Source of the DNA: Desulfobacterales bacterium
GTDB taxonomy: Bacteria > Desulfobacterota > Desulfobacteria > Desulfobacterales > JAIPEE01
NCBI GenBank assembly: GCA_021737275.1
Contig: JAIPEE010000003.1
Coordinates: 124,001-188,000 of the forward strand
Reading direction: 5' to 3'
DNA: 64,000 nucleotides
Within the stretch, counting starts at the first letter, position 1, and each line of letters opens with the position of its first letter. The notes below the pieces were generated by a model. The model was not told the origin of the DNA. It saw only the letters and a list, made by a program, of their open reading frames with translations, and made no database searches. Of this stretch, positions 12,141 to 42,714 are shown one piece after another. Made by a program: the position numbers and the translations under genes.

Positions 12141-13523
12141 CTACGTCTTATAAACACCCTGCCGTGACCTGGCGGCTACCTTCAGCACATCAACATTTAC
12201 ATCAACATAATCATACACTCTGGCTTTTTCTTTACCCGGAGCCGGTCTCAACACCCGTCCAAGATATTGCAAAACTCTACCGTTAAACCGTATGGGCGTT
12301 GCCAAAAATAAAGTGGTAAGGTGCTTACAATCAAACCCCTCCCCTATCAGTTGCCCGGTTGCCAAGAGCACTTTTATCTTTTCATTGTTAAGTCCCTGAA
12401 AAATTTCCTTGCGCTCATTTACCGGAACATCCCCTGTCAGCAAAACCGCATCAATCTTATGTTTGAATTTTAAAAGGGACTGAATCACCTCGCAATGCTT
12501 TTTTCTGTCTGACAGAACGACACATATGCCGCTCTCTTCTCTGCCGGCCTCTTTGGCAACATCATCAGCAATAAGATGATTTCTGGCTTCATCCGCTGTT
12601 AATTCTGAAAGCATTTTTGTATATTCATTTACCGGATCAAAATACGGTGTAAAATCAGTTTCCCTGTAAACGATATCAGCGGTTAATACATCACCGCTTT
12701 CAACCAGGTCAGATTTTTTCATTTCATGAACCGTATCTCCCAGGTGCCAGAAAATCAGTTTTGATAATTTGTCCCGTCGCCAGGGTGTTGCACTGAGACC
12801 GGTCATATATTTTGAATCAAACTCCGTGACGGCATCCGTAAATGTCCGGCTGGGAATTCGATGGCACTCATCAACAATTACATAACCGATATGATCGGAG
12901 ACCTCTTCAGCACATTTGTAAAGGCTCTGGACAAGTGCAATTGTAATTTTCTCTCCTATTTTCTTTTTACCGCTGCCAATAAATCCGACCTCATCTTCCG
13001 GTATACCCAGAAAATCGGAAACCCTCTCAATCCACTGAATCCCGAGATCTTTGGTATGCACAACAATCAGTGCCGGCTGCTTTCTCATAGCAACCATATA
13101 AAGCGCCATCACCGTTTTGCCGCAGCCGGTTGGCGCGCTCAGTGTCCCGAACTCTCTTTCCAGCATGATATCAACCGCTTCCTGCTGAAATAGTTTGAGC
13201 CTGCCTGAAAACTCAAACGCAACTTCCGGCAAAACTCTCCGGCCGTCTTTTATTTCAAACAGAATACCATTTTTTCTGAACAGGTATATTAACTGACGTA
13301 CATATCCCCTTGGAACAAGGAGGCCGTCCGAAGTGGTTTTAAAATAAAACCGAAGAACCTTGGGCGTTTTCCGGTTCCATCGCCCCATACGTTCATTTTC
13401 AAACCATTTTGGGTTATCCAGTGTCAGACGCTCTACAAGATCCTGTCTGAGATCAGAAGAGAGCCCGGACAGCCGAAGATGTTTTGTAACTGTAATTTTA
13501 ACTAATTTGTCTGTTTTATTCAT
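12141..13523 (-). CDS. Superfamily 2 DNA/RNA helicase (DEAD/DEAH, XPB/UvsW-like)
   Basis: ATP-dependent helicase or translocase of 460 residues. An N-terminal domain of about 100 residues precedes the helicase core. Motif I is SAPTGCGKT, motif II is VDECH, motif III is GLSATPWR, and motif VI is YLGRVLRPAPG with the arginine finger. The compact size and the start of the core with RLKLFQQEAVD resemble phage UvsW and bacterial XPB-type helicases in DNA repair. It is convergent with the cyclase gene (50 bases apart) and sits 80 bases downstream of the YkgJ-like gene, with a terminator in that gap, so it probably has its own promoter. Confidence 0.85.
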   Translation of the reverse strand: MNKTDKLVKITVTKHLRLSGLSSDLRQDLVERLTLDNPKWFENERMGRWNRKTPKVLRFYFKTTSDGLLVPRGYVRQLIYLFRKNGILFEIKDGRRVLPEVAFEFSGRLKLFQQEAVDIMLEREFGTLSAPTGCGKTVMALYMVAMRKQPALIVVHTKDLGIQWIERVSDFLGIPEDEVGFIGSGKKKIGEKITIALVQSLYKCAEEVSDHIGYVIVDECHRIPSRTFTDAVTEFDSKYMTGLSATPWRRDKLSKLIFWHLGDTVHEMKKSDLVESGDVLTADIVYRETDFTPYFDPVNEYTKMLSELTADEARNHLIADDVAKEAGREESGICVVLSDRKKHCEVIQSLLKFKHKIDAVLLTGDVPVNERKEIFQGLNNEKIKVLLATGQLIGEGFDCKHLTTLFLATPIRFNGRVLQYLGRVLRPAPGKEKARVYDYVDVNVDVLKVAARSRQGVYKT

Positions 13524-19712: not shown

Positions 19713-21188
19713 ATGAGCAGCGACACCTTATCCGATGCCGCTTCGGCGAAATTCAATATAAAACGTTTTATTTTTCTTTCTATTGGTATTGTTCTTTTCT
19801 GCATTGTTAACTGGTCACCACCCTGGCCGGATGCCATTGATCCTGCAGGACAACATTTTCTTCTTTCAAAAGAGGCAAAAGGCGCACTGGCCGTTTTTCT
19901 GCTGGCCGGCACCTGGTGGGTTTTTGAAGTTGTCCCCATTGGCGTCACCAGTATTATGATTGGCGTACTCCAGACACTTTTCCTCATTCGCCCGGCAAGA
20001 GCCGCTTTTACCGATTTTATGGTTCCGTCGGTAATGTTTATTTTTGCATCTCTTATGATCGGTATGGTATTTACCAAAACGGGCCTGACAAAACGACTGG
20101 CTTATAAGATGCTGGTTATTGTGGGTGAAAAAACCAGTATGATATACCTCGGGTGCTTTGTCGTTACAGCCGCCCTTGCCCATATAATGGCCCATACGGC
20201 TGTTGCCGCAACTATTTATCCCCTCCTCCTTTCAATTTATGCACTTTATGGCGAAGGAGATAAAAAAACCAAATTCGGCAAAGGTCTTTTTATGGGTATG
20301 GCTTATGTGGCCGGTGCAGGCAGTATTGTTACCCTGCTTGGTGCCGCCCGCGGTGCTGTAGCCATTGGTTTTTATAAGGATGTAATCGGTGCGGATGTCA
20401 GCTTTTTTCAGCTTACATATTATATGTTCCCCATTGGATGGTTAATGACCTTCCTCCTCTGGGGCTTTTTCATGATTTATTACAAGCCTGAAAAAAAGGT
20501 TATTCCGGGCCTGAGAGAAAAGGCAAGGCAGCTTTATTCCGAGATGGGGGGTATTACCAAAAAAGAAATTTTAGCTTCCGTTATTGTTTTCGGATGTATC
20601 CTTATCATGTCCCTGAGATCATTTGTTCCTGCCCTTCAGGCTGTTGACAAAACCGGTATTATTCTGGTTTCGACCATTTTGTTTTTTGTGACCGGCATTA
20701 TGGATATTGATGATCTGGAAGCCATTCCATGGAATATCATTTTGCTGTTCGGCGGTGCCATGAGTATCGGATTCTGTCTGTGGGAAACCGGCGCAGCCAA
20801 ATGGCTGGCGGTTAACTGGCTGGTCATGTTCCAGAATGCCCATTGGTTCATCTTTGTAATGAGCATTGCATTCTTTGTCCTGATGATGACAAACTTTATT
20901 ATGAATGTTGCAGCCATTGCGATATCGTTACCGGTAGCACTTGTTATTGCACCATACCTCGGTGTTGCGCCCGATGTAATTCTTTTTGCATCCCTGGTAA
21001 CGGCCGGTATGCCATTCCTCCTTCTTGTCGGAGCGGCCCCCAATGCCATTGCCTATGATTCAAAACAGTTCTCTGTGGGTGAGTTTTTTATTGCCGGTAT
21101 ACCTGCAAGTATACTTCTGATGGTTGTGGTGGCTTTTGCCGTATTTATATTATGGCCGATAATGGGTATGCCCATTACCTTACCTTAA
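19713..21188 (+). CDS. DASS-family (SLC13-like) anion:sodium symporter
   Basis: A 491-residue inner-membrane transporter with about 11-12 hydrophobic helices, of the divalent anion:sodium symporter family. In sulfate reducers this family is used for sulfate or dicarboxylate uptake. It has a repeated-inverted topology, with the two conserved hairpin regions at AHTAVAATIYPLL and TNFIMNVAAIAISLP. At both places the usual Ser-Asn-Thr of the family is altered. A strong ribosome-binding site (AGGAGTC) precedes the ATG. It is the last gene of the kinase, receiver and CBS cluster, which suggests that uptake of its substrate is the regulated output. The substrate cannot be told from sequence alone. 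Confidence 0.85.
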   Translation: MSSDTLSDAASAKFNIKRFIFLSIGIVLFCIVNWSPPWPDAIDPAGQHFLLSKEAKGALAVFLLAGTWWVFEVVPIGVTSIMIGVLQTLFLIRPARAAFTDFMVPSVMFIFASLMIGMVFTKTGLTKRLAYKMLVIVGEKTSMIYLGCFVVTAALAHIMAHTAVAATIYPLLLSIYALYGEGDKKTKFGKGLFMGMAYVAGAGSIVTLLGAARGAVAIGFYKDVIGADVSFFQLTYYMFPIGWLMTFLLWGFFMIYYKPEKKVIPGLREKARQLYSEMGGITKKEILASVIVFGCILIMSLRSFVPALQAVDKTGIILVSTILFFVTGIMDIDDLEAIPWNIILLFGGAMSIGFCLWETGAAKWLAVNWLVMFQNAHWFIFVMSIAFFVLMMTNFIMNVAAIAISLPVALVIAPYLGVAPDVILFASLVTAGMPFLLLVGAAPNAIAYDSKQFSVGEFFIAGIPASILLMVVVAFAVFILWPIMGMPITLP

Positions 21189-21258
21189 CCGGACAAAATG
21201 ATCAGAAGTTCACGACAGGCTTTTGGTGAAATATCCATACGATTTTGAGGTAAAAAAA

Positions 21259-22704
21259 ATGAAAAGTGTATTAAAACTTATTGACAGGATTGCGAACAGG
21301 GTAAATATCTCTCTTGCAGATCTGGAATTTGAAGCCAGACCCATTATCTACAACATGACCAAACCGAATAAGTTTCTGAAATTTTATGCTTTTTACGGAG
21401 TTACGGATCATCACCCGCTATATTTTCATTTCAGTAATTCAAGTCTGGCCGGCAGTTATTTTTTTGGAAAGTGCCGTGTTGACAACTCAGTCCTCTATAA
21501 ATCCGATATCAGGGGCGATGAACTGAAGGAAAAGGGAGACCGGTTTCATTTTCACGGTATCGATTTCATGATAGAGCACGATGAATCCATCCACATCAAA
21601 GACAGCTACCTCAACAAAACACTTGTCCACAGCAGTTCGCATGATCCTGAATACCCGGAACTGTTTTTAATCAAAAACACAGCCGCAAGCCCGTATTCAA
21701 ACATTCACGGCTCCCCGTGCAGAGGTGTCTATATGGGGCATTTTTCAACCGCGGATTTTACGGTGATACATGACTGTATCCTTGACCGGTTTGCTTATGT
21801 ACAATCGGGAACGCTTTCCCATAAACATATTGAACCCGGCAGGATATGGGTCAAATCCGGTGATGATTTTGATTTCAGTTATAATTTTCCGACAGAAGTT
21901 ATTGATAAATATATCTCTTTTGAGCCGGGACATAAACCTGAAGGCATCTTCATGGATTTTATCACAGAAAAGAGAAAGGCTTTCCAGAGGATATTTGACG
22001 TCATCCATATCAAACCACATGAAAATGTTCCTTCAGGAACTGCTATCAGCAGATATTCCGTTATCAGGGGCAAGTGCCACTTTGAAGACAATGTGCTGGT
22101 TGCCCAGCGGGCCTATCTTGAAAATGCCTGGCTTGGCAAAGGTGCCAATGCCCAGGAGAACTGTTTCATTGTTAAATCCCGGCTTGAAGGATACAATGTG
22201 ACAGCCCACGGCGCCAAAATCATTTACACCCAACTGGGCAAAAATGTTTTTGTCGGTTTCAACTCGTTTCTGCGCGGCAAATTCGATACATTTGTTGAAG
22301 GCAAACTGGCATGCCCGCTGGTTATAGGAGAAAGCTCCATTGTTATGCCTCATACCATAATCGATCTTGAAGAGCCCGTCACAATACCGCCAAAACATCT
22401 GGTTTGGGGCTATATAACAAACAAAAGAGATCTTAAAAAGCACAGCATACCACTTGAAAAGCTTGCCGATATATCTGACGGCATTTCTCTTGGCGCAATG
22501 AAGTTTAGTGGCTCCGGGAAATTATTTGTAGATACTTTCAAAAACAGAATTACCAAAATTCTGGAACAAAACGGCGCTCATTTTAAGGACAAAAAACTTA
22601 AAGGACATGCGCAAAAGGGAAGAAATATCTCCTATAATATTATTCAACCATATTCAAAGGGACCGCGAAAAGGGCTGTATCCAACCATGGATATCAGCGT
22701 TTGA
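21259..22704 (+). CDS. Uncharacterised left-handed beta-helix (hexapeptide-like) protein
   Basis: About 481 residues and soluble. The middle (roughly residues 255-390) reads as imperfect hexapeptide coils, for example AISRYSVIRGKCHFEDNVLV, AYLENAWLGKGANAQENCFI and AKIIYTQLGKNVFVGFNSFL, as in LbH acyl- or nucleotidyl-transferases. An N-terminal domain of about 240 residues also has turns of short beta strands, and the C-terminus is basic. No clear catalytic His could be assigned. I chose the ATG at 21259 because GAGG lies 8 bases before it; a GTG at 21223 is possible. It overlaps the next gene by one base and forms a unit with the small membrane and radical SAM genes. Confidence 0.7.
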   Translation: MKSVLKLIDRIANRVNISLADLEFEARPIIYNMTKPNKFLKFYAFYGVTDHHPLYFHFSNSSLAGSYFFGKCRVDNSVLYKSDIRGDELKEKGDRFHFHGIDFMIEHDESIHIKDSYLNKTLVHSSSHDPEYPELFLIKNTAASPYSNIHGSPCRGVYMGHFSTADFTVIHDCILDRFAYVQSGTLSHKHIEPGRIWVKSGDDFDFSYNFPTEVIDKYISFEPGHKPEGIFMDFITEKRKAFQRIFDVIHIKPHENVPSGTAISRYSVIRGKCHFEDNVLVAQRAYLENAWLGKGANAQENCFIVKSRLEGYNVTAHGAKIIYTQLGKNVFVGFNSFLRGKFDTFVEGKLACPLVIGESSIVMPHTIIDLEEPVTIPPKHLVWGYITNKRDLKKHSIPLEKLADISDGISLGAMKFSGSGKLFVDTFKNRITKILEQNGAHFKDKKLKGHAQKGRNISYNIIQPYSKGPRKGLYPTMDISV

Positions 22705-22944: not shown

Positions 22945-24558
22945 ATGCCAGACATTCTTCTTATTCAGCCCCCCATACGTGACTTTTATTTCACTGCAAA
23001 ACGAACAATCCCCTACGGGTTAACCTGTATTGCGGCCGCCCTTTCAAGATCAGGCTTTACCGTTGATATTTTTGACGGCCTTGCCACTTCAAAATCAAAG
23101 GCAATTGATATACCGGATGAAATGGCGTATCTGTCACCTTATTATGCCAAACCGGATGTTTCACCATTTGCTCTTTTTCATAAATATAAACACTACGGTT
23201 ACAGCTTTGAGCATATCGGACACATGGCAAAGGCGTCCGGCGCCGCTCTTATCGGCATATCATCACTTTTCACTGCATATAGTGAAGAGGCTCTCAAAAC
23301 GGCTGAAACGGTAAAAAAGTTCAACCCGTCATGTAAAGTAATCATGGGCGGCCACCACCCTACCGAGCTGCCGGAACAGGTGATGAATTGCTCCGCCGTT
23401 GATTATATTATCCGGGGTGAAGGTGAGTTATCGCTGCCGATGCTGGTAAATGCTTTAAACAAAGGTGAAAAGGTTGATCATATCCCCGGCATTGTTTTCC
23501 GCAAGGCTGATCATACGCTTCATATAAATGAACCTGCTGTGATGGATAACCTGGATAAGTACCCGTTACCGTCTGCCCATCTCGTTAAACATCAGTTTTA
23601 CAAAAGAAATAAAAAAGGTAGCACCGTTATCGTTTCGACCCGTGGCTGCCCGCTTAAATGCTCATACTGCTGCATCGGTTCGGGTTCCTGTTCAACATAT
23701 CGCAGAAGAAGCATTTCACAAGTTATCAGCGAAATTGATTTGGCGGTAAACAATCATGATGCCGGTTTTATTGATTTTGAAGATGAAAATATCTCTTATG
23801 ACCGAACCTGGTTTCTTGAGCTGATGAGTCAAATTGAACGACGATATATTTCACATGATCTTGAACTCAGGGCGATGAACGGCCTCTTCCCGCCAACTCT
23901 GGATGATGCTGTTATAACCGCTATGAAGCGGGCCGGTTTCAAAACGCTGAATCTCGCCCTTGGATCCATATCAAAAGAGCAATTGAAAAGATTCAGGCGG
24001 CCGGATGTCAGAAAATCATTTGAAACTGCCGTGGCTTTCGCAAAAGAAAATGGTCTTGACTGTGTATCCTATATCATCGTCAGTGCACCGGGACAGGATG
24101 CCATAGAATCTGTTAATGATTTGATGTACTTATTTAAAAAAGAGGTACTGGCAGGTGTTTCGGTTTTTTATCCGGCGCCCGGAAGCCCTGATTATAAATT
24201 ATGCGAAACCCTTGGCATTCTTCCAGACACATTCTCCCTGATGCGTTCAAGTGCCCTGCCCCTTTCACATAAAACCTCACGGCTTGAAAGTGTAACACTT
24301 CTCAGGCTTGGCAGGATTTTAAATTTCATTAAATCGCTTATTGATAATAGCCACAAAATTCCATCGCCGGCACCTTGTGAAATATCATCTTTTGACAAAC
24401 TTGCTGACCGAAAAGAGATGGGCACCCGCCTTCTTAAATGGTTATTTTTTGATGGAAAGATTCGGGGCGTAACTCCGGACGGAATAATTTACGACCATTA
24501 TTCGGATAAAAATTTAGTTAACCATTTCCTTAAACTTCTGCCTCACCAACAATCCTGA
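22945..24558 (+). CDS. B12-binding radical SAM protein
   Basis: A 537-residue radical SAM enzyme. The N-terminal region has a Rossmann-like B12-binding domain, with MPDILLIQPPIRD at the start and MGGHHPTELPEQVM further in. The core carries the cluster motif Cys-x3-Cys-x2-Cys in RGCPLKCSYCC (about residue 235) and a typical TIM-barrel, with EDENISYD and LGSISKEQLKRFRRPD. It belongs to the broad class of B12-dependent radical SAM methyltransferases or related enzymes. The substrate is unknown. It starts 7 bases after the small membrane gene, so the three genes are one operon. Confidence 0.85.
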   Translation: MPDILLIQPPIRDFYFTAKRTIPYGLTCIAAALSRSGFTVDIFDGLATSKSKAIDIPDEMAYLSPYYAKPDVSPFALFHKYKHYGYSFEHIGHMAKASGAALIGISSLFTAYSEEALKTAETVKKFNPSCKVIMGGHHPTELPEQVMNCSAVDYIIRGEGELSLPMLVNALNKGEKVDHIPGIVFRKADHTLHINEPAVMDNLDKYPLPSAHLVKHQFYKRNKKGSTVIVSTRGCPLKCSYCCIGSGSCSTYRRRSISQVISEIDLAVNNHDAGFIDFEDENISYDRTWFLELMSQIERRYISHDLELRAMNGLFPPTLDDAVITAMKRAGFKTLNLALGSISKEQLKRFRRPDVRKSFETAVAFAKENGLDCVSYIIVSAPGQDAIESVNDLMYLFKKEVLAGVSVFYPAPGSPDYKLCETLGILPDTFSLMRSSALPLSHKTSRLESVTLLRLGRILNFIKSLIDNSHKIPSPAPCEISSFDKLADRKEMGTRLLKWLFFDGKIRGVTPDGIIYDHYSDKNLVNHFLKLLPHQQS

Positions 24559-24823: not shown

Positions 24824-26782
24824 ATGAATCATTTTTTTCTGGCAATACTGATAATCGCTTCCGGTGGTGCTTTAACCCTGATCCTGCAGAAACAGTTTAC
24901 CTTTATGAAGGCTGTTGGTGTTCTGGGTATAAGTACCGGATGTCTCATTGGATTGATTGATGCCCTGTTCAAGCTTTTTAATCCGGTATCCCACCACCTC
25001 TCTTTCAACTACCTGAATTCATTATCCCTTACATTTCAAATTGATGGTCTTTCGGCATTTTTCCTGGTTGCCATTTTTGCTGTTTCCCTGCTTGCTTCAA
25101 TTTTCAGCTTTCATTACATGAGCAAACCGGAAAAATCTCTGCGAACAGCCGTAAATTACCTTTTTTTCAGCCTCCTGATTGCTTCAATGGCACTGGTTGT
25201 AACGGCAAGCAACATACTTGCCTTTATGCTTTCATGGGAGATTATGTCACTGTCATCCTTCTTCCTGGTGATATATGATTATCAATCACCGGAAAACAGA
25301 AGAGCCGGTTATCTCTATTTTATTTTTTCACATGTCGGTGCCATGTTCATATTTGCGGCATTTGGTCTTATTTATGGCTATACCGGCAGTTTAGGGTTTA
25401 ACATTACGGCTGAAATCCCTGAAACAGTAAAAATCCTGGTTTTTATTTTCTCTTTTATCGGATTTGGGTCAAAGGCCGGTGTTTTTCCTTTTCACATCTG
25501 GCTGCCCCATGCACATCCGGCAGCACCCAGCCATATTTCTGCTGTCATGTCCGGCGTTATGATTAAAACGGGTATTTACGGTATTTTAAGAATATACACG
25601 CTTCTTGACCTGAGTACACCGCTGTTCGGTCAAATTGTTGTGATTGCCGGAATGGTTTCCGGGATACTCGGCATCGTTTATGCCCTGGGCCAAAATGACC
25701 TCAAACGCCTGCTGGCCTATTGCAGTGTTGAAAACATCGGCATTATTCTCATTGGACTTGGTATCGGAATGATCGGTGTGTCTTCCGGTAACCCGTCCAT
25801 GGCTGTACTTGGCTTTACCGGTGGACTGCTCCATGTTCTGAATCATTCTATTTTCAAGTCACTTCTGTTTATGGGCGCCGGCATTGTGATTCAGAAAACC
25901 GGAAGCCGTTCCATCAATGTACTTGGCGGCCTTCTGAAATCCATGAAAATTACAGGCACTACTTTCATTATCGGATCAATTGCCATTTCAGGGCTCCCAC
26001 CCTTTAATGGTTTTGTAAGTGAATTTTTTATTTATCTGGGCGGATTCCAGGGTGTTGCACTTGATAAAGCATCATTTGTGCTGAGTATTCTTGCCATCGT
26101 CAGCCTTGCCGTAATAGGAGGCCTTGCCCTGGCCTGCTTTACGAAAGTTGTGGGCGTGGCTTTTCAGGGCGAACCAAGAAGTAATGCTGCAGCGGATGTA
26201 GATGAAAAAGGACCGTCAATGCTTCTTCCGTTGATTATTCTTTCCGGTGCTTGTCTGGTTATCGGTGTATTGCCGGGAGTTTTTATTAATATGGCCGTTA
26301 ATGCGCTGTCATCTGTTGGCCTGGCCTTTACGCCTGATACCATTGAACCGTTTACAAAGATTACCGGTAATATCTCAATGGCGGCATTGATATTCTTTAT
26401 CTTTCTGCTTTCGGTTCTGGCACTACGGACAATTCTATACAAAGGAAAAACCATTAGCCGATCCGGCACGTGGGGCTGCGGTTTTACACAGCCTACAGTC
26501 AAAATGCAATATACGGGAACATCCTACGCGTCTTTTATTCTTGAGTTTTTTAAACCGATTGCACCAAACCACGAAGTACTTAAGTCGGTGCAGGGACGAT
26601 TTCCGGAGAAAACAAAATACAGCAGCCGAATCAATGACATTGCCGAGCTGCACATGGAAAATGTAATTGTTCGCCCGGTACTATGGCTGTTTGATAAATT
26701 GCGATGGATTCAGCATGGCGATATCCATCTTTATATTGGTTATATTCTACTGGCCATCATTGTATTGTTGTTTTTTGTATAA
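24824..26782 (+). CDS. Ehr complex antiporter-like subunit (HyfB/HycC-like)
   Basis: A 652-residue integral membrane protein of the NuoL/M/N and Mrp antiporter family, as found in group 4 hydrogenases (HyfB, HycC). There are about 15 transmembrane helices. The conserved core has the family Glu in SWEIMSLSSFFLV, Lys in GFGSKAGVFPFHIWLPHAHPAAPSHISAVMSG and the Lys-His region GGLLHVLNHSIFKSLLFM. It probably translocates H+ or Na+. The C-terminal cytoplasmic extension has RSGTWGCGF, typical of HyfB/HycC. It is the first gene of the operon, with AAGGTGAT as ribosome-binding site. Confidence 0.92.
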   Translation: MNHFFLAILIIASGGALTLILQKQFTFMKAVGVLGISTGCLIGLIDALFKLFNPVSHHLSFNYLNSLSLTFQIDGLSAFFLVAIFAVSLLASIFSFHYMSKPEKSLRTAVNYLFFSLLIASMALVVTASNILAFMLSWEIMSLSSFFLVIYDYQSPENRRAGYLYFIFSHVGAMFIFAAFGLIYGYTGSLGFNITAEIPETVKILVFIFSFIGFGSKAGVFPFHIWLPHAHPAAPSHISAVMSGVMIKTGIYGILRIYTLLDLSTPLFGQIVVIAGMVSGILGIVYALGQNDLKRLLAYCSVENIGIILIGLGIGMIGVSSGNPSMAVLGFTGGLLHVLNHSIFKSLLFMGAGIVIQKTGSRSINVLGGLLKSMKITGTTFIIGSIAISGLPPFNGFVSEFFIYLGGFQGVALDKASFVLSILAIVSLAVIGGLALACFTKVVGVAFQGEPRSNAAADVDEKGPSMLLPLIILSGACLVIGVLPGVFINMAVNALSSVGLAFTPDTIEPFTKITGNISMAALIFFIFLLSVLALRTILYKGKTISRSGTWGCGFTQPTVKMQYTGTSYASFILEFFKPIAPNHEVLKSVQGRFPEKTKYSSRINDIAELHMENVIVRPVLWLFDKLRWIQHGDIHLYIGYILLAIIVLLFFV

Positions 26783-26856
26783 ATAATGCCTTTTGTTAAA
26801 CCCGGCCTTGAGGGTTTCAACCGGCTCAGTATTAATTTAAAAAAAGAGAAGATGTT

Positions 26857-27777
26857 ATGATTAAATCCATTATTCTGTGGGCACTTGCGATTCTTCTGGC
26901 ACCGTTTTTCTCTGCTGTCATTCTTAAGGTGAAAGCATTCTTTGGCGGACGAAAAGGCTCTCCTCTGCTGATTAACTATTATACACTGATCAAGCTTTTC
27001 AAAAAGGGATCGGTATACAGTACGAGTACGACACCTGTTTTTAAAATGGGGCCGATTGTCTCCATGGCTGCTTCCGCCATCATATTGCTGTTTATTCCCA
27101 TTGCAGGTCAAAACCCGGTCATTTCATTTAATGGTGATATTATCTTCATTCTCTACCTGCTGGGGCTGGCGCGCTTTTTTACCATTGCTGCCGCCATGGA
27201 TACGGCATCACCTTTTGAAGGAATGGGTGCAGCAAGGGAAGCATATTTCCCCATCATTTGTGAAGCCACCATGTTCATGATCCTGATTCTGTTTTACAGA
27301 CTCTCCGGGGAATTGACGCTTTCCGCTTATTTGTCAGGCGACCAACCTTTATCACTCTGGCATGGTGCAGGCTCACCGCTGCTGTTCGTTATATTCGCCC
27401 TTTTCATTGTCCTGCTAACTGAAAATTCCAGGGTACCGGTAGATGATCCCGCTACACATCTGGAACTGACCATGATCCATGAAGTCATGGTGCTGGATCA
27501 CAGCGGACCTGATTTAGGGCTCATCGAACTGGGATCATTCTGCAAACTGTTTTTCTACTCTACTTTTATTGCCGGGCTGATTTCACCTTTTGATCTCGGT
27601 CATCCGTTAATGAATGCGGCGCTGTTTGGTGCAGCACTTTTTGTTATTTATATTTCTGTCGGCATCACTGAATCTGTCATGGCCCGTTACAGAATGGACA
27701 GGGTTCCCAAATTCGTACTGACATCTTTTGCTCTGGCCCTTTTTGCAACCATCATAACATTGGAGTTTATGAAATGA
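26857..27777 (+). CDS. Ehr complex membrane subunit (HyfC/HycD, NuoH-like)
   Basis: A 306-residue membrane protein with about 8 helices, of the NuoH/HycD/EchB family that connects the membrane arm to the catalytic arm. Family motifs seen: FFSAVILKVKAFFGGRKGSP near the N-terminus, FFTIAAAMDTASPFEGMGAARE in the middle, and TENSRVPVDDPATHLELTMIHE. The Glu/Asp residues of these loops form the ion-entry region. The stop overlaps the next start by 4 bases (ATGA). Confidence 0.93.
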   Translation: MIKSIILWALAILLAPFFSAVILKVKAFFGGRKGSPLLINYYTLIKLFKKGSVYSTSTTPVFKMGPIVSMAASAIILLFIPIAGQNPVISFNGDIIFILYLLGLARFFTIAAAMDTASPFEGMGAAREAYFPIICEATMFMILILFYRLSGELTLSAYLSGDQPLSLWHGAGSPLLFVIFALFIVLLTENSRVPVDDPATHLELTMIHEVMVLDHSGPDLGLIELGSFCKLFFYSTFIAGLISPFDLGHPLMNAALFGAALFVIYISVGITESVMARYRMDRVPKFVLTSFALALFATIITLEFMK

Positions 27778-28415
27778 TCCATCCGGTTGATACATTGTTA
27801 TCTCTTGTGCTGCTGTCAATTCTGTTCTCTTTTGGTTCCAGCCGTCTTCCCGGACTTATCAAGGCGCTGGCCTTTCAGGGTATCATCGTGTCTGTTGTAC
27901 CGTTATTTATAGGTCATGGTGTTACCGGCGAGGGTGTCCTGTTTACTTCAGTCACCTTAATTATTCGGGGTATTGCCATTCCGCTTTGCATCTATCTGGC
28001 TATCAAAAAAGTCGGTATTAAAAGAGAAGTTGAGCCGATCATCGGTTACAATGCGTCCATGCTGATCGGGCTGTTCCTGATTCTGGCTTCAATTTTTGCC
28101 GGAAAAAAATTCAATATAAATGCAATCGGTGACGTCTCTCTACTGGTACCAACTGCCATTACAGTGCTCATCGGCGGAATCTACCTGCTCATCGCCCGCA
28201 GAAACGCGATTGCAATGGTTCTGGGATATATCATGATGGAAAACGGTATTTACCTTGTGGGCACATCATTTTCGGTGCGTGTCCGGCATATTGTGGAGTT
28301 TGGTATCCTTCTTGACGTTCTTGCAGGCGTTATGATCATGGCTGTAATCCTGCAGAACATCAAACAGGAATTTGATGATGTGGATACGGCTTTACTCAGA
28401 ACATTAAAGGAATAG
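27774..28415 (+). CDS. Ehr complex membrane subunit (HyfE-like)
   Basis: A 213-residue membrane protein with about 6-7 helices. It resembles the HyfE subunit of hydrogenase-4, which has a NuoK-like C-terminal part: GYIMMENGIYLVGTSF followed by FGILLDVLAGVMIMAVILQNI. It is translationally coupled with the preceding gene (4-base overlap) and lies 10 bases before the next. The N-terminal third is divergent, as is usual for this subunit. Confidence 0.9.
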   Translation: MIHPVDTLLSLVLLSILFSFGSSRLPGLIKALAFQGIIVSVVPLFIGHGVTGEGVLFTSVTLIIRGIAIPLCIYLAIKKVGIKREVEPIIGYNASMLIGLFLILASIFAGKKFNINAIGDVSLLVPTAITVLIGGIYLLIARRNAIAMVLGYIMMENGIYLVGTSFSVRVRHIVEFGILLDVLAGVMIMAVILQNIKQEFDDVDTALLRTLKE

Positions 28416-28425
28416 GTGATTTTTC

Positions 28426-29847
28426 ATGGTTGAAATTATTATTCTAATCCCGCTGCTGACAGGAATCCTCGCTTTTTTCCTTCCCCGGAGTCCCGGACGT
28501 CAGCTGCTGGTGCTTACCGGTGTACTTCACCTGCTGCTCTCAATTTTTTTGTGGGCCAAACAACCGGAAGCGCTGTTGCCTGATTATTTTGCGATAACAT
28601 CGGAAGGCCTTTTATCTCTGATTGTGATATCGTTATTATTTTTCATGATCTCCATTTACACAACGACCTACCTTAAAATATCCAATTATAAATCTGAAAA
28701 AATGTTTACCGGCTCAATGCTGATGTTTCTGGCCACCATGACGATGGTAACACTCTCTGATCACATTATGGTGATGTGGATCGCCATTGAAGCAACAACA
28801 CTGGCCAGCGCACCGTTGATATTTACCCATAAAACACCGTCATCTCTTGAAGCCACCTGGAAATATGTACTGGTCTGTTCCGTGGGCATTGCCATGGCGC
28901 TGCTGGGTTCCGTACTGATTACGGTTTCCATGGAAGTGGCCAATATTGATGCACCGCTCTCTTTTTCTGCGCTGAGCAATGTTGCAAAGGGGCTTGATCC
29001 CATGTGGCTCAAAACCGGATTTATTTTCATTCTTGTCGGATACGGCACAAAAATGGGCCTGGCGCCCATGCACACATGGCTTCCGGATGCCCATAGTGAA
29101 GCTCCCAGCCCGGCATCAGCCCTTTTATCAGGTGTGTTGCTCAACTGTGCTTATCTTGGCATTTTTAAAACCAACAAAATAATGATGGCCGCAGGCCTTG
29201 GTGATTTTTCCGGAGCAATCCTGATGGTATTCGGCCTGATTTCCATTCTGGCCGCTGCCACCTTTATTTTAAAGCAGACTGAATACAAAAGACTGCTGGC
29301 ATACTCCAGTATTGAGAATATGGGGATTATCGCCTTTGGAACCGGAATCGGCGGCATAGGCGCTTACGGCGCTGTTTTATGTCTGATCCATCACAGTCTG
29401 ATCAAGTCATCGCTGTTCCTGACGTCAGGTAATATCTTGCTGGGTTACGGCAGCAAACTGATTGATAAAACCGGTGGCCTGGTAAAACGCATGCCCAAAT
29501 CCTTTGTCGCATTTTTTGCCGGGTTTGCCGCTATATCAGGATTTCCGCCCTTTGGTATATTTATCGGTGAACTGTTTATCATCATTGGTGCTTTCCGCTC
29601 AGGCCATTATACGGCTGCCACATTATTTATACTGAGCCTTTGCGTTATTTTTGCCGGATTTGCCAACCAGGCCATGAAGATTTCTTTTGGTGATTCAGCC
29701 GAAGCTGCCCGTATAGAAGAAAAAATAACAATGGTCTGGCCACAATATGCACTTCTCTTAACCTCACTGGTATTGACCTTCTGGATTCCGGATACACTCT
29801 ACCAGACAATTGTTCATGCGGTAACTTCCATCAGTGGAGGATTTTAA
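28426..29847 (+). CDS. Ehr complex antiporter-like subunit (HyfF-like)
   Basis: A 473-residue membrane protein of the NuoL/M/N family (HyfF type) with about 14 helices. Conserved residues include the Glu in WIAIEATTLASAPLIF, the Lys/His region YGTKMGLAPMHTWLPDAHSEAPSPASALLSG, and LIHHSLIKSSLFLTSGNI. It would form a second ion channel in the membrane arm. The stop TAA overlaps the ATG of the large subunit by one base (TAATG). Confidence 0.92.
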   Translation: MVEIIILIPLLTGILAFFLPRSPGRQLLVLTGVLHLLLSIFLWAKQPEALLPDYFAITSEGLLSLIVISLLFFMISIYTTTYLKISNYKSEKMFTGSMLMFLATMTMVTLSDHIMVMWIAIEATTLASAPLIFTHKTPSSLEATWKYVLVCSVGIAMALLGSVLITVSMEVANIDAPLSFSALSNVAKGLDPMWLKTGFIFILVGYGTKMGLAPMHTWLPDAHSEAPSPASALLSGVLLNCAYLGIFKTNKIMMAAGLGDFSGAILMVFGLISILAAATFILKQTEYKRLLAYSSIENMGIIAFGTGIGGIGAYGAVLCLIHHSLIKSSLFLTSGNILLGYGSKLIDKTGGLVKRMPKSFVAFFAGFAAISGFPPFGIFIGELFIIIGAFRSGHYTAATLFILSLCVIFAGFANQAMKISFGDSAEAARIEEKITMVWPQYALLLTSLVLTFWIPDTLYQTIVHAVTSISGGF

Positions 29848-31355
29848 TGAAGAGTGATTTTTTAGAAATTTCAAATGGTGAAGCATTAATCAGGAGCAGG
29901 ATCCCTCACCTTCCCTTTGATCTTTTTCGTAAGGAAGCATTGGATATTGTCGGAAACGGGGGCAAAGTGGTTCAGTTTTTTGCCTATCAGGATGGAGAAG
30001 CAGTCAAACTACTTACTGTTTTAAGAACAGATAAGCTGCTTGTCGCCGGCACGGATGCACCTGAGTCATACCCATCTTTAACGAACGAGTGTGAACCGTT
30101 TCATATGTTTGAGCGAGAGATTGCCGAACAGTTCGGTATTCGGCCCGAGGGCCACCCGTGGCTTAAAATGGTTCGCTATCATGCCAACTGTCAGGGCAAA
30201 CCGGATGTATTTGGAAATGACTATAAAAAAGATATTCCCGGACAATATGACTACTATTCCGTGGAAGGTGATGCCATTCATGAAGTCGCTGTTGGTCCGG
30301 TCCATGCCGGTGTTATTGAGCCCGGACACTTTCGTTTCAACTGTATCGGTGAACGTGTCCTGAATCTTGAAATTCAGTTGGGATACCAGCACAGGGGTAT
30401 TGAAAATCTCTTTTTAAATATTGATAACAAGCGTCTTCCGATTATCACCGAAGGCATTGCCGGGGATACAGCCGTCGGCAACAGTCTCTGTATGGCTCAG
30501 GCGCTGGAGGCCCTTTCCTCTGTTACTCCGGATAACGGTGCAAAGATTATCCGGACCATAGGTCTTGAATTTGAACGCATCGCCAACCATGTTGGGGATC
30601 TGGGTGCATTGAGCGGTGATGTTGCCTTTTTACCGCCTGCCAATTATTGCGGCAGAATGAGAGGTGATTTTCTCAATATGACCTTGTGGATGTGCGGAAA
30701 CAGATTTGGTAAAGGGCTGGTTCGACCCGGCGGCGTCCGATTTGAGATGACCGATGATGACCGAAAAACACTGCAGGAACGTATCGATGTATTGAAACCG
30801 CAAGTCCGGCACACCATAGATCTTATTTTATCCACGTCCAGTGTTCGTTCCCGTTTTGAAGGCTGCGGTACCGTCAGCACATCGGATGCTGAAAAACTCG
30901 GCCTGGTCGGGCCTGCAGGTCGGGCCTGTACAATGCCTTATGATGTCAGGAGATGTTTTCCAACAGAACATTATGTGAATCTGGATATTCCTGAAAATGC
31001 AGAACCAACCGGTGATGTATATGCCCGTGCAAAAGTAAGGGGGGATGAAGTAATGCAATCCATCAGCATTATTGAATCTCTGCTCGCTGACCCTGTTGAG
31101 ACAAATATCGTAGATACGGCCGAACTGAAACCGGCACCATCTTCATTTGTTGTGACGCTGAATGAAGCCTGGCGAGGTGAACTGTCTCACTGTATTCTGA
31201 CAGATGAGAAAGGTAATATCCTCAGACATAAGGTTAAAGATCCTTCCTTTCATAACTGGAATGGACTGTCCATGTCTTTGAGGGATACCGGGATTTCCGA
31301 TTTCCCGTTAAATAACAAAAGTTTTAATCTGTCCTATTGCGGATTCGACCTTTAA
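29847..31355 (+). CDS. Ehr complex large subunit (NuoCD/HyfG-like) lacking Ni ligands
   Basis: A 502-residue fusion of a NuoC-like domain (about 1-135) and a NuoD/hydrogenase-large domain (about 150-502). The order and the ending match HyfG/HycE, but the Ni-Fe ligands are gone. The first CxxC of group 4 hydrogenases aligns with EGIAGDT: Ala205 and Thr208 replace the cysteines, and Asn212 replaces the His. The last CxxC aligns with SFNLSYCGFDL at the very C-terminus, with Ser496 and Gly499. It therefore belongs to the Ehr (energy-converting hydrogenase-related) group. It probably transfers electrons to or from an unknown partner, not H2. A one-base overlap links it to the preceding gene. Confidence 0.9.
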   Translation: MKSDFLEISNGEALIRSRIPHLPFDLFRKEALDIVGNGGKVVQFFAYQDGEAVKLLTVLRTDKLLVAGTDAPESYPSLTNECEPFHMFEREIAEQFGIRPEGHPWLKMVRYHANCQGKPDVFGNDYKKDIPGQYDYYSVEGDAIHEVAVGPVHAGVIEPGHFRFNCIGERVLNLEIQLGYQHRGIENLFLNIDNKRLPIITEGIAGDTAVGNSLCMAQALEALSSVTPDNGAKIIRTIGLEFERIANHVGDLGALSGDVAFLPPANYCGRMRGDFLNMTLWMCGNRFGKGLVRPGGVRFEMTDDDRKTLQERIDVLKPQVRHTIDLILSTSSVRSRFEGCGTVSTSDAEKLGLVGPAGRACTMPYDVRRCFPTEHYVNLDIPENAEPTGDVYARAKVRGDEVMQSISIIESLLADPVETNIVDTAELKPAPSSFVVTLNEAWRGELSHCILTDEKGNILRHKVKDPSFHNWNGLSMSLRDTGISDFPLNNKSFNLSYCGFDL

Positions 31356-31411
31356 GTTTAGATGCTTTTGTTTTTTTGGATTTTTCTAAATGAATTAAAA
31401 GAGGAACCACA

Positions 31412-32155
31412 ATGCTCAAAGTACTGAAAAACAGATTCGAACAGGGTTGCAAAACCAGCAGTTATCCCAAAAGTAAAGTTGAATTACCGCCGCGCTATCG
31501 CGGCATACCGAAAATAAATAAAGACGCGTCATCAGATATTGTTGCAGAATGTGTAGCGGCCTGCCCGCAGGATGCCATTGATGCAGACAGCAAAATGATT
31601 AACTTGGGGCGTTGTGTATTTTGTGGAACCTGTGAGCGTATATCTAAAGGTGATTTCATCACCTTTACCGGAGATTTCGAACTTTCCGTATCTGAAAAAG
31701 AACATCTGATAACAGACGGCAATCTTGCATCACTGGCCGACCATTCAAAGCAGCACTTTAAAAAACTTTTTGGCCGGTCACTTCAGTTAAGACAGGTATC
31801 CGCAGCAGGCTGCAATGCATGTGAAGCCGACCTGAATGTTCTGGCAACGCCCTTTTTTGATCTGGCACGATTCGGAATCAATTTTGTGGCATCTCCCCGC
31901 CATGCTGATGGTCTTGTCGTAACAGGCCCGATTTCAAGGAATATGAAAACAGCGCTCCTGCAAACTTATGAAGCCATCCCTGACCCCAAAGTTGTTATTG
32001 CTGTCGGAAGCTGTTCGATATCCGGCGGGCCTTTCAGGGGAAGTCCTGAAATTACAGAAGGCCTTGATACGCTGATTCCTGTGGATCTTTTTATTCCGGG
32101 GTGTCCACCTCACCCGATGACGAACCTGCATGCGTTGCTGACATATTTTAAATAA
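31412..32155 (+). CDS. Ehr complex electron-transfer subunit: ferredoxin fused to NuoB-like small subunit
   Basis: A 247-residue protein. The N-terminal ~95 residues are a degenerate 2[4Fe-4S] ferredoxin. The first motif keeps only its last two cysteines (ECVAACP) and the second keeps its first three (RCVFCGTCER), so just one cluster can form. The C-terminal domain is a NuoB/HyfI-type small subunit with proximal-cluster cysteines in GCNACEADL, GSCSISGG and PGCPPHP. It resembles HyfH and HyfI joined in one protein. AGAGGAACC is a strong ribosome-binding site. This is the last gene of the operon, and it would pass electrons from the membrane-bound site to a soluble carrier. Confidence 0.88.
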   Translation: MLKVLKNRFEQGCKTSSYPKSKVELPPRYRGIPKINKDASSDIVAECVAACPQDAIDADSKMINLGRCVFCGTCERISKGDFITFTGDFELSVSEKEHLITDGNLASLADHSKQHFKKLFGRSLQLRQVSAAGCNACEADLNVLATPFFDLARFGINFVASPRHADGLVVTGPISRNMKTALLQTYEAIPDPKVVIAVGSCSISGGPFRGSPEITEGLDTLIPVDLFIPGCPPHPMTNLHALLTYFK

Positions 32156-33297: not shown

Positions 33298-34227
33298 CTA
33301 CTCATCTGACTCTCCATTTTTTACTCTTTCCAGTGCAATCAAAACATTCCGATGGAATAGATTGTAAGGAATATCCGTATTCAGATGGCCAAGTTTTTCT
33401 CTGTAGCTTTCTTCTGACAAATTAACCAAATCCGGTAAATAAAAAAACGTCTCCCAGTCTTCAATTTTCTTTTGGAAAGATTCCGTCATATTTGTTGTTA
33501 AAGGGTGATCGATATGTTTTTTGTTCCACGGACAGGCCTCCTGGCATATTTCACAATCACCCACTCTGTTTTCCATTACTGCTTTAGCTTCCCTGGGCAG
33601 ATGTTCAATCTGCAACATGTTCGAAAGGCAGCTGTTTCTGTTTAAAACATATGGTTGATCCAGGGCCCCCAAAGGGCATGCCTGTTGGCACTTGTCGCAT
33701 TTATCACATTGATTGGATTCCTGTTCGGTGTTGTGTTCCAGGGGGGCATCGGTTATGATTCCTCCAAGTGCTAAAAAAGTTCCATACTTTTTTGATATGA
33801 GCAACGTATGCTTGCCTTGCCAACCTAAGCCTGCTCTTACTGCGGCAAGTTTCAGCGGAATGACGGATCCGTCTTCCTGAGCGCCGTCACAAACTATGGC
33901 TTGATAGCCTTGGTTTCGTAGTAAATTGACAATCGGTTCAAGCGGTTTTACAACATCAAGAAAAAACGCTGAAAGATAGAGCCTGCTTGTTCGGCCATAC
34001 CGGGGATTCATCCAGGCGGGAAGAGTTAACCCGCCTATGTAGATGCCTGCCACAATAATTGTTTTTGCGCCCGATAACGATAGCTTTGGATCCCGTCGTT
34101 GCGAGTGGTTTAAGGCATAGTCTGAAAATTCGGCTGCTTCAGCAAATCCCAACGCATCTAAACCTGAGGAATCAGCAAGATTTCTGATCTTTTCCGAAAG
34201 CAAATCCATATCCATTTTTCTTGTCAT
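33298..34227 (-). CDS. QueG-like 4Fe-4S double-cluster protein
   Basis: A 309-residue cytoplasmic iron-sulfur protein of the epoxyqueuosine-reductase family. The substrate-side motif is LAAVRAGLGWQGKHTLLIS. Two [4Fe-4S] motifs are visible, CDKCDKCQQACP and CEICQEACPWN. True QueG reduces epoxyqueuosine in tRNA with cobalamin. This protein lacks the C-terminal HEAT domain and departs from typical QueG around the active site (DGSVIPLKLAAVRAG instead of DTAPVLEKAWA), so it may be a paralogue with another substrate. It starts with GGGGAGG 5 bases before the ATG. It is a single-gene unit upstream of the PEP-CTERM gene on the same strand. Confidence 0.7.
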   Translation of the reverse strand: MTRKMDMDLLSEKIRNLADSSGLDALGFAEAAEFSDYALNHSQRRDPKLSLSGAKTIIVAGIYIGGLTLPAWMNPRYGRTSRLYLSAFFLDVVKPLEPIVNLLRNQGYQAIVCDGAQEDGSVIPLKLAAVRAGLGWQGKHTLLISKKYGTFLALGGIITDAPLEHNTEQESNQCDKCDKCQQACPLGALDQPYVLNRNSCLSNMLQIEHLPREAKAVMENRVGDCEICQEACPWNKKHIDHPLTTNMTESFQKKIEDWETFFYLPDLVNLSEESYREKLGHLNTDIPYNLFHRNVLIALERVKNGESDE

Positions 34228-39832: not shown

Positions 39833-41350
39833 TCAACCCCATCTCCCATTACCAGGTTTCATATCTTCAGGTTTAAGCTTAATGGGAAACGTCTCCCGGA
39901 TACGTGCATCCGCCGCAGGGTCTATATGATCAGGATAATGGCTGGAAAGCATCTGTTTTACTTTTTCATGGGCCCGATCATAAATTGTTTTACTACCATC
40001 TTTTTGCCACTCTTCAGGTAAGCGTCGGTCAGCTATTTCAGGATAAGTGAACTCGCTTCTCATCAGTTTATAAGTCTGGGGATGATCAAGATAGTGGCCC
40101 TGGCCATAAACGGCCTCCTTGATGACGTCATATGATAATGTTTCATCGGTGACCTCAATGCCCCGGACAATCCGAAGCACATTGCCCAGCATATCATTAT
40201 CAATAACCAACCCTTCAAACGACTGGGCTATCAGGCTGCCGACCATACCCGGGAAACAGCTGATAATATTACAGCCGGCTAACGCTGCGGTAGATGTTGT
40301 AATGCCTTTTTCATATCCGGCCTGGGCATCCATAGTTTTAGAATCTGTCATTCCCGACGGTCCACTAACAATCAATCCATAATAATTGCATAACTGTGCG
40401 GTTGCAGCAGTAACCAACGCCTCTTCACCGTTGCCGCCGGTAAAGTTTCCGGTTCGCAGATCCGTAATGAACGGCCACATGCTAAAAAGCATCGGCATAC
40501 CCGGACGGACAAAGTTGACAGCGCACAGTCCAGCCAGTGTTTCTGCAAATGTTTGAACCATTGCACCGGCAAGAGCCGCAGGTGCTGTTGAACCGGCCTG
40601 GGGGGCAACACATGCGTCTGTCGGTAGGCCAAGCTGGGCGGTTTTAATCAATACCGCCAGGTTGTCTTTACTGAACGCAAGGGGAGACAGGATCGGGCAT
40701 CCAAGCATATAGCAGAATGGACGCTCCAGAAACGCGCCCTCTTTTCCTAGAAAAGTATCAAACAAAGAGATAATGGGGTCAATATGTGTTGGCTCTGAAA
40801 TGGACAGGGTAAACGGTTTCGTATTTCCTGCCAGCTGGGTATAAGCAATATTGATATCATGCAGAAACAGATCTTCACTATGTTCGGTAGCAATAAAAGG
40901 CTGCTCGAAGATATGAATATTATCCAGTTGATCAACCATGCGGGATGCATCATACAGGTCAAGCAGCGTAGATGGTCGATATGTCTGAGTTTCATAATCC
41001 AGTATACTGACAGCTTCACCGCCTGTACATGTATAAATATCTTCTCCACTTACTTCCAAATCATATTTTGAATCAACGCCATAATAAGAAATCTTTTTCC
41101 CGGCATTGGCTATAATATCTTCAACCAGCGCCCTGGGGAACTTAAGTCGGCCATCATCACCCATAATACATCCCTTGGGCAGTGCATATTCAAGCAACTC
41201 CGATGTAGGGTTTGCGATGCCAATATTTTCAAGCACATCAAGCGCTGTACTATGAATTCGCTCAATGTCTTTTCTGCTGAGTGGTTTAAAGGCACCGCCG
41301 GTCATTCCGGACCAAATTGGCTTATCGGTTGGTTTTTTTTGATTTACCAT
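39833..41350 (-). CDS. MttB-superfamily methylamine-type methyltransferase, non-pyrrolysine
   Basis: A 505-residue TIM-barrel protein of the trimethylamine methyltransferase (MttB) family. These enzymes move a methyl group from a quaternary or tertiary amine (glycine betaine, proline betaine, carnitine and others) to a corrinoid protein. The frame has no internal amber codon, so it is the pyrrolysine-free type like MtgB. Segments such as KPIWSGMTGG, SEPTHIDPIISLFDTF and TDSKTMDAQAGYEKG fit the family. I chose the ATG at 41350 because AGGAGGA lies 7 bases before it; a longer frame from 41380 has no good site. No corrinoid protein or MtrH/MtvA-like partner is adjacent, so the partner must be elsewhere. 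The substrate is unknown. Confidence 0.85.
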   Translation of the reverse strand: MVNQKKPTDKPIWSGMTGGAFKPLSRKDIERIHSTALDVLENIGIANPTSELLEYALPKGCIMGDDGRLKFPRALVEDIIANAGKKISYYGVDSKYDLEVSGEDIYTCTGGEAVSILDYETQTYRPSTLLDLYDASRMVDQLDNIHIFEQPFIATEHSEDLFLHDINIAYTQLAGNTKPFTLSISEPTHIDPIISLFDTFLGKEGAFLERPFCYMLGCPILSPLAFSKDNLAVLIKTAQLGLPTDACVAPQAGSTAPAALAGAMVQTFAETLAGLCAVNFVRPGMPMLFSMWPFITDLRTGNFTGGNGEEALVTAATAQLCNYYGLIVSGPSGMTDSKTMDAQAGYEKGITTSTAALAGCNIISCFPGMVGSLIAQSFEGLVIDNDMLGNVLRIVRGIEVTDETLSYDVIKEAVYGQGHYLDHPQTYKLMRSEFTYPEIADRRLPEEWQKDGSKTIYDRAHEKVKQMLSSHYPDHIDPAADARIRETFPIKLKPEDMKPGNGRWG

Positions 41351-41652
41351 CGTTTTGTCCTCCTGAGATCTGCTTTGCAAAGGTTTAATATGCTATCAGA
41401 TTATGCCTGATACGCAACTAATTTTCATTTTTTTAAAAAAGAATATAATGAGAATGGCTATTGTCTCAAGGGGTTGTCGGATAAATGGCGAGTCTTTTTT
41501 CGTGTGGGAAAGCAAGCTTGCTTGCCATAAGTATTTACTTTGGGGAAAGTACACATAAAATTATACAAATCACAACAAAATGCTTTGATTTTACCGGGTT
41601 TGTGCTAACGTAGCGGACCTAAGATAATTCTGAGGAATCTATAGGAAATAAT
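41351..41652. other. Intergenic region between selD-1 and mttB
   Basis: 302 bases without a gene. It contains the palindromic core GCAAGCTTGC near 41513-41522. I see no convincing terminator for selD-1 or promoter for mttB. Confidence 0.4.
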
Positions 41653-42714
41653 TTATTTTCTGAATACAAGATTCACATCATTTTCAACTTCCTCCACACA
41701 CCCGATAATCGCAGCATTCTCGATACCGGCATCATGAAGTTTCTCTACCAGCGATGCTCCCTGCTCGGCGGGAACGGCAGAAAGAAGACCACCGTTGGTT
41801 TGTGGATCAAAAACAATTTCGGTTTCCCATGATGGCAGAATTGTCTCAAAACGGGTATGCGGTTCGACCATTTTCCGGTTATGCATGTTAACGCCTGTGG
41901 TGACGCCCTTTTTATACATCTCCACCGCTTCACGCATAATCGGTAGTGTACTTAAATTTATAACCAGTTTTTTTTCTGAAGCCCTGGCCATTTCGTAACA
42001 GTGCCCGGCTAATGCAAAACCGGTCACATCTGTAGCCGCATGGACGTCAAACGCAGCCATAATTTCTGCGGCTTTTCGGTTAAGCGTCGTCAGGCAGGAA
42101 GTACATTCATCCATCGCTGTTTTGGAAACATAGTTTTTAATATTGGCATTAAATAACACACCACTTCCAAGCGGCTTGGTTAAAATCAGGACATCCCCTG
42201 CCCTTGCCCCTGCATTGGTCCAAATTTTTTGAGGATGGACAATTCCGTTAACGGAAAGGCCAAACTTGGGTTCAGTATCTTCAATACTGTGGCCGCCGGC
42301 CAGCACTGCACCGGATTCCGTTATTTTACTCATTGCCCCGGCAATTATTTCATGCAAAACTTCAGGTGCCAGTTTTTTGGAAGGAAAGGCAACAAGGTTA
42401 AGACATGTAATCGGTTTGCCACCCATGGCGTAAACATCGCTGATGGCATTTGCTGCTGCAATCTGGCCGAATATATAGGGATCATTTACAGGCGGCGTAA
42501 TAAAATCCGCAGTAGTGACAATCGCCATTTCATCATTCAGACGATATACACCTGCGTCATCACTTTTTCCAAATCCGACCAGCAGATCAGGATCAAGATT
42601 TTTGGGGAGACTTTTCAAAAGTTTGTCGAGCCCGACCGGGTCGATTTTAGCAGCTCAACCGCAGGTCTTTGACAAATTCATGAGCGTCGGTTTTTGAAAA
42701 AATTTCCAGATCAA
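41653..42714 (-). CDS. selD: Selenophosphate synthetase with selenocysteine (selD-1, in-frame TGA)
   Basis: Makes monoselenophosphate from selenide and ATP. The frame runs through a TGA at 42657-42655 in TGC-GGT-TGA-GCT-GCT-AAA, giving the active-site signature Cys-Gly-Sec-Ala-Ala-Lys with the essential Lys. Downstream residues include FGKSDDAGVY, AIVTTADFITPPV, the FGQIAAANAISDVYAMGG block and GGHSIED, all typical of SelD. With the TTG at 42714 (GAGG six bases upstream) the product has 353 residues and Sec at position 20; ATG at 42681 is an alternative. The N-terminus before the motif is atypical. Another frame here reads IFSKTDAHEFVKDLRLSC and then stops, so a frameshift cannot be excluded. 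It follows the C_GCAxxG_C_C gene by about 40 bases. Confidence 0.85.
42626..42657 (-). promoter_or_regulatory. Candidate bacterial SECIS element of selD-1
   Basis: Directly after the TGA (42657-42655) comes an 11-base spacer, then an imperfect hairpin. Its arms are TCGA-CCC (42644-42638) and GGG-C-TCGA (42633-42626), with a GGTC loop (42637-42634) and a bulged C. The GGTC loop about 18 bases after the TGA recalls the GGUCU loop of the E. coli fdhF SECIS. The fold was judged by eye. Confidence 0.5.

Follow-up and report, generated by a model that had tools for sequence, protein, structure and literature searches.

The window examined here, a stretch of 64,000 nucleotides of Desulfobacterales DNA, carries a complete six-gene Ehr operon (24824-32155, + strand), in whose large subunit, EhrL, the [NiFe] site of hydrogenases appears from its sequence to have been rebuilt as a conserved polar pocket, rather than being the remnant of a decayed hydrogenase. 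The genes follow the order B-C-E-F-L-S, with HyfB-, HyfC-, HyfE- and HyfF-like membrane subunits preceding EhrL and EhrS. Their positions, and those of the motifs discussed below, are as follows:

24824..26782, + strand: EhrA, 652 aa, HyfB/NuoL-like antiporter subunit (Pfam Proton_antipo_M; NCBIfam hydrogenase 4 subunit B, E=4e-171)
26857..27777, + strand: EhrB, 306 aa, HyfC/NuoH-like (Pfam NADHdh, E=1e-32)
27774..28415, + strand: EhrC, 213 aa, HyfE-like, NuoK-type (NCBIfam hydrogenase 4 membrane subunit, E=5e-23)
28426..29847, + strand: EhrD, 473 aa, HyfF-like second antiporter subunit (NCBIfam hydrogenase 4 subunit F, E=2.5e-102)
29847..31355, + strand: EhrL, 502 aa, large subunit, fused NuoC+NuoD / HycE-like, without Ni ligands
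30450..30470, + strand: apparently rebuilt loop 1 of EhrL, residues 202-208 (E-G-I-A-G-D-T), in place of the CxxC that supplies the first two Ni ligands
31314..31352, + strand: apparently rebuilt C-terminus of EhrL, residues 490-502 (NKSFNLSYCGFDL-stop), in place of DPCxxC
31412..32155, + strand: EhrS, 247 aa, HyfH-like ferredoxin domain fused to a HyfI/NuoB-like small subunit
31562..31633, + strand: sole [4Fe-4S] motif of the EhrS ferredoxin domain (C51, C68, C71, C74), the ligands of the other cluster being lost (S40, V44, S78)

The EhrL reading frame and the preceding HyfF-like gene overlap by one base, at the stop codon of the latter, and the operon contains no genes for NuoEFG, formate dehydrogenase or HycB/HyfA. 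Group 4-like large and small subunits are encoded in one operon with antiporter-like membrane subunits, and the Ni ligands are absent, which supports the identification of an Ehr complex made in the original prediction. The family is already known and the window complex is a further member of it: its EhrL is homologous to that of the Geobacter-type Ehr, with 46-47% identity over nearly the full length to the proteins of two Geomonas loci (L083 and L114). Related complexes occur in 67 of 297 genomes of the window phylum and in about 30% of 387 Verrucomicrobiota genomes. Ehr is among the most widespread complex I relatives without a known reaction, and its function is stated as unknown in the literature (PMC6349859, PMC10284858). 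As regards the surroundings of the operon, a gene for a B12-binding radical SAM protein lies just upstream (22945-24558), and a homologue of it adjoins ehr in one other locus (L039). The window also encodes a short QueG-like iron-sulfur protein (33298-34227, - strand; 140.8 bits against a QueG cut-off of 200) and, as read by eye from the translations, an MttB-like methyltransferase (39833-41380, - strand), then a SelD-like gene (41653-42618, - strand).

It had been predicted that the four cysteines of group 4 [NiFe] hydrogenases are replaced in EhrL by Ala205, Thr208, Ser496 and Gly499, and alignment with HycE and HyfG had been named beforehand as the check. When aligned with these two E. coli proteins, the Ni-binding cysteines of the RVCGIC and DPCYSC motifs indeed fall on A205, T208, S496 and G499. 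The alignment to the solved structure of HycE (7z0s_E) reaches E=7e-35, and the same chain is the top PDB match (TM 0.88) of the AlphaFold model of EhrL, which was built with 79 relatives and has a pLDDT of 92.3. The combination A-T-S-G is found at the four positions in 126 of 151 EhrL relatives, and none of the 151 carries more than one cysteine there, the first position being Cys in three of them. The case that would speak against the prediction, namely that cysteines are conserved at the Ni positions and had been misplaced, is not what the alignments show. C498 sits one residue ahead of the last Ni site; it was rejected as a shifted ligand because it is replaced by S or A in 14 of the 151 relatives.

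The genome content agrees with the alignments. EhrL is the sole Complex1_49kDa (PF00346), i.e. NuoD-like, protein in the window genome (G000; 4.26 Mb, 96% complete), and HypD, required for [NiFe] maturation, was not found in that genome. Missing maturation as a rule for Ehr-bearing genomes was rejected, since HypD is present in 39 of 45 Desulfobacterota genomes with Ehr. Two NiFe-binding CxxC motifs, HypD and a cleavable C-terminal extension, by which a group 4 [NiFe] hydrogenase is recognised, are all missing, and from sequence and genome content the EhrL complex is not a hydrogenase.

The residues that stand in place of the metal site are invariant across many phyla. The replacement reads E-x-x-A-G-D-T ... 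N-K-S-F-N-L-S-Y-C-G-x-D-L in the 151 EhrL proteins, with G206, D207, N490, K491, S492, Y497, G499 and D501 present in all of them, S496 in 150, and T or S at position 208 in 149. In a diverse set of 79 sequences, the two site loops hold 10 invariant columns where 2.8 are expected (P=1e-4). The cleavable C-terminal extension of HycE and HyfG is absent: the window EhrL ends at L502, all 151 chains terminate at this same leucine, and residue 502 aligns to R537 of HycE, where the HycI protease cuts. Hence, ehrL appears to code for a C-terminus that is already mature. Furthermore, E158 aligns to the proton-gate residue E21 of MbhL and is a glutamate in all 151 proteins. I157 and G206, both likewise fixed in 151 of 151, align to H38 and Y87 of Nqo4, which in complex I are ligands of the quinone headgroup (PMC7684303); by alignment, EhrL lacks these quinone ligands.

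In the membrane arm, invariant positions comprise E139, K217, K294, H341 and K345 of EhrA (92 relatives), R106, E136, R192, D196, E203, E209 and E272 of EhrB (142 relatives), and K146, K209 and K327 of EhrD (124 relatives). The arm is predicted to move ions, either H+ or Na+. The further claim that the other subunits are intact holds for the antiporter subunits and for the proximal [4Fe-4S] ligands of EhrS (C134, C137, C201 and C231), but not for the ferredoxin domain of EhrS, which keeps one of its two [4Fe-4S] clusters. This loss is common to 34 loci of the window clade, while all eight cysteines are kept in 90 loci. As the proximal ligands are retained in about 144 of 147 EhrS relatives, it seems that electrons usually matter to these complexes.

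The proximal ligands have been lost in three separate places in the EhrS tree: in Planctomycetota (L072 and L214/L267), in Verrucomicrobiota (L105 and L244/L266) and in Allomeiothermus (L203). They have become N, E, E and W in L072 and D, A and S in its sister L214/L267, where the contig end cuts off the last ligand; the verrucomicrobial sequences have D, V, C and W (L105) or S, E, E and W (L244/L266), and in Allomeiothermus silvanus all are lost. Apart from this loss, the operons are complete as far as their contigs reach, and the ferredoxin-domain cysteines are still carried in four of the five cases. The C-terminal pocket of EhrL is intact in all five sequences, and the GD of loop 1 is kept in the planctomycete and verrucomicrobial cases, with T208 changed to A in two of these. 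For the planctomycete and verrucomicrobial pairs, dN is about 0.13-0.30 and dS about 1.1-1.4 in both EhrL and EhrS, which indicates purifying selection. Since the proximal ligands have been lost and the pocket has been kept under such selection, electron delivery to the pocket appears not to be essential in these two lineages. The A. silvanus locus lies on plasmid pMESIL01; its loop 1 is altered (GGE-P) and the C-terminus of its EhrL, NKSFDLSYAGCDL, is kept. A different arrangement is seen in type 2 Ehr, found on plasmids of aerobic bacteria, where the proximal cluster is kept and EhrS has no ferredoxin domain. One verrucomicrobial locus (L266, genome G846, 1-13100) holds two Ehr complexes. 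The first has an EhrS without the proximal cysteines, and a type 2 operon separates its F gene from its L gene.

The original prediction that the complex pumps ions with an unknown redox partner is therefore upheld in part. The ion-pumping arm is conserved, and a redox partner is possible in the window complex, which retains its proximal cluster as well as one in the ferredoxin domain. As a general rule, however, a redox partner is an unsafe assumption, because three lineages have lost the proximal ligands and two of them have retained the pocket.

The explanation that we favour, though tentatively and with rather less than even weight, is that Ehr is a machine of the complex I / formate-hydrogenlyase type, in which two antiporter-like subunits, a NuoH-like and a NuoK-like subunit are joined to EhrL and EhrS and the [NiFe] site has given way to a conserved pocket. 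This pocket would be a polar acid-base site made up of E158, D207, N490, K491, S492, S496, Y497, D501 and the free C-terminus. The membrane arm, moving H+ or Na+, would be coupled via the NuoH-like subunit to the uptake or release of protons by a small substrate in the pocket, and in EhrL a small molecule may undergo a reaction that is linked to protons and, in some lineages, independent of electrons. With an unbroken Fe-S chain, which the window complex has, the machine would probably be driven or tuned by a low-potential donor, for instance ferredoxin; in the lineages without the proximal cluster, the ion gradient itself would have to be the driver. The candidate substrate is CO2/HCO3-, by analogy with NDH-1MS and DAB, which act as vectorial carbonic anhydrases. 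It appears to be the leading candidate, on evidence from a minority of loci.

This evidence comes from gene neighbours, among them carbonic anhydrases that belong to unrelated families. A homologue of LCIB-type carbonic anhydrases adjoins ehr in eight loci. It matches the profile of PtLCIB4 (E=1e-4) with aligned Cys-Asp, His and Cys motifs, and PF18599 is recognised in seven of ten members; its AlphaFold model is of low confidence (pLDDT 62), and the top PDB matches are still carbonic anhydrases of the LCIB family. The 297 genomes contain four close copies. Three are encoded upstream of ehr and in the same orientation; the remaining one belongs to a genome that lacks ehr, lies beside a SulP transporter and has one flanking gene in common with an ehr locus. 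The slot directly after ehrS is occupied by an LCIB-type gene in L055 and by a Pro_CA gene in L057. CsoSCA-like proteins are encoded near ehr in two loci, L115 (E=1e-6) and, as a weak match, L066 (E=0.003). SulP transporters, one of them fused to a P-II domain, occur close to ehr in about eight loci. Five Pro_CA genes were counted in the ehr flanks, 1.48 Mb in all, where the genome-wide density predicts 0.43; a within-genome comparison of the 12 kb around ehr gave three against 0.59 expected (P=0.02), a statistically modest excess. Ehr proteins of G. sulfurreducens are, in addition, abundant in growth with formate or H2 plus CO2 (PMC7894505). It is the carbonic anhydrase and SulP neighbours together with this abundance that make CO2/HCO3- the most specific substrate candidate.

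Carbonic anhydrase neighbours are nonetheless a minority among Ehr loci. A further set of 46 loci, including 40 new ones from Verrucomicrobiota, contained none, and the link was rejected as a general rule, being unsupported in that phylum and modest for Pro_CA alone. The window operon is flanked by a DASS transporter and by no carbonic anhydrase, and the CO2 link is only a hypothesis because the window genome contains no protein of the three families searched (Pro_CA, LCIB and CsoSCA). The DASS transporter gene stands side by side with one for a left-handed beta-helix (LbH) protein (19713-22704). The LbH protein (21223-22704) was considered as a gamma-carbonic anhydrase partner of Ehr and rejected, since it occurs in 26 of the 297 genomes, mostly without Ehr, beside DASS or SulP transporters. 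DabA was likewise rejected as a neighbour, the large neighbouring reading frames that were checked being MMPL, Omp85, LeuRS and HerA. A GAPDH-like protein with an N-terminal extension is encoded directly after ehrS in five Geobacter-like loci (L097, L118, L121, L136 and L137). Taken together, the genes around ehr suggest a role in HCO3-/CO2 or ion homeostasis rather than a link with any recognisable redox enzyme. In its strongest form, the proposal would make Ehr complexes energy-coupled inorganic-carbon machines that use a non-metal pocket for CO2/HCO3- and protons and are driven by ferredoxin or, where the Fe-S chain is lost, by the ion gradient; stated so broadly, we consider it unlikely.

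A ferredoxin-driven redox ion pump is a serious possibility and, for the window complex, nearly as likely as the CO2/HCO3- reading, which it follows closely. In this view, in essence that of the original prediction, the ferredoxin domain of EhrS would hand electrons via the proximal cluster to a small acceptor at EhrL, and H+ or Na+ would be pumped. The near-universal proximal ligands, the presence of the ferredoxin domain in most EhrS proteins and the retained proton-gate residue E158 all fit such a pump, and the polysulfide-reducing MBS offers a precedent in which Ni ligands were lost and another substrate is reduced (PMC7684303). It is harder to reconcile with the loss of the proximal ligands in three lineages, of which two have an intact pocket, with the type 2 complexes of aerobes, and with the neighbour clusters inspected, among which no redox enzyme recurs.

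A non-redox cation/proton antiporter or pH-homeostasis machine, in which EhrL and EhrS form a PTS-controlled module for gating or regulation and the carbonic anhydrases and anion transporters are incidental neighbours, is rather improbable. Directly upstream of ehr, 75 of the loci examined have a gene combining HTH_17 and PTS_EIIA_2 domains, as do 26 of 46 further loci; the gene accompanies most of the wider Ehr family though not the window clade. HPr genes are found near plasmid Ehr, and variants without the proximal cluster exist. Such a machine leaves the invariant, catalytic-looking pocket and the conserved clusters of the majority unexplained. More doubtful still is the reverse mode suggested for G. 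sulfurreducens, which we regard as very improbable and in which the ion gradient would serve to reduce ferredoxin for CO2 fixation. Cultures growing autotrophically with formate and with H2 contain Ehr in abundance (PMC7894505). The carbonic anhydrase neighbours would fit a demand for carboxylation, but the quinone ligands are absent and variants without the proximal cluster could not operate in this manner. Moreover, we know of no electron donor for this reaction.

The view that Ehr is a decayed, non-functional hydrogenase, as a 2026 paper assumes for Geobacter (G. sulfurreducens) in expecting relaxed selection (PMC13194489), fits the lost Ni ligands but can hardly be right, as it is contradicted by the invariant replacement site, the conserved pump residues, the low dN/dS and the wide distribution. 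Judging from the sequences compared, Ehr is conserved and almost certainly functional.

Within the openly licensed literature, we found no description of an invariant rebuilt site with a fixed C-terminus, of repeated loss of the proximal ligands or of an association with carbonic anhydrases, nor any published link between Ehr and these enzymes. An invariant pocket in place of the metal site, together with the loss of the feeding cluster in three lineages, narrows the range of chemistry to be considered, and the carbonic anhydrase and SulP neighbours make the function of Ehr specifically testable. Ehr also bears on how hydrogenases became complex I.

Among known systems, the closest are the Ehr of Geobacter (GSU0739-0745) and its relatives, which have the same subunit set B-C-E-F-L-S and no Ni ligands. 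The Geomonas loci differ from the window operon in having an extra HyfB copy, and most Ehr relatives carry two ferredoxin-domain clusters, whereas the window clade has one and is without the HTH-EIIA gene. EhrL resembles HycE and HyfG of E. coli (group 4a) in fold and in its proton-gate Glu, and Ehr shares with formate hydrogenlyase and hydrogenase-4 a CxxC-type proximal cluster and a HyfB/C/E/F-like membrane arm; it differs in having neither Ni ligands nor the C-terminal extension, and the window genome differs in lacking HypD. The architecture is also that of complex I, with homologues of NuoB/C/D/H/K/L/M and with D258 of EhrL corresponding to Nqo4 D139, but H38 and Y87 of Nqo4 are replaced by I157 and G206, and NuoEFG are absent from the operon. 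The archaeal sulfane reductase MBS/MBX is, likewise, a hydrogenase relative that has lost Ni ligands and performs another reaction (PMC7684303). MBS retains two of the four NiFe-site cysteines, has a three-Cys proximal cluster and lacks the E21 of MbhL (PMC7684303), whereas the window Ehr has none of the four cysteines, a four-Cys proximal cluster and the glutamate. Finally, Ehr shares an antiporter-like subunit of the NuoL family with the vectorial carbonic anhydrases DAB/DAC and NDH-1MS (PMC13144422), and the carbonic anhydrase-family genes of some Ehr operons are a further point of likeness. Unlike DAB/DAC, the window operon has no DabA-type gene, and Ehr possesses the redox-type subunits EhrL and EhrS. 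That Ehr operates like DAB and NDH-1MS is proposed as a hypothesis, with no claim of membership.
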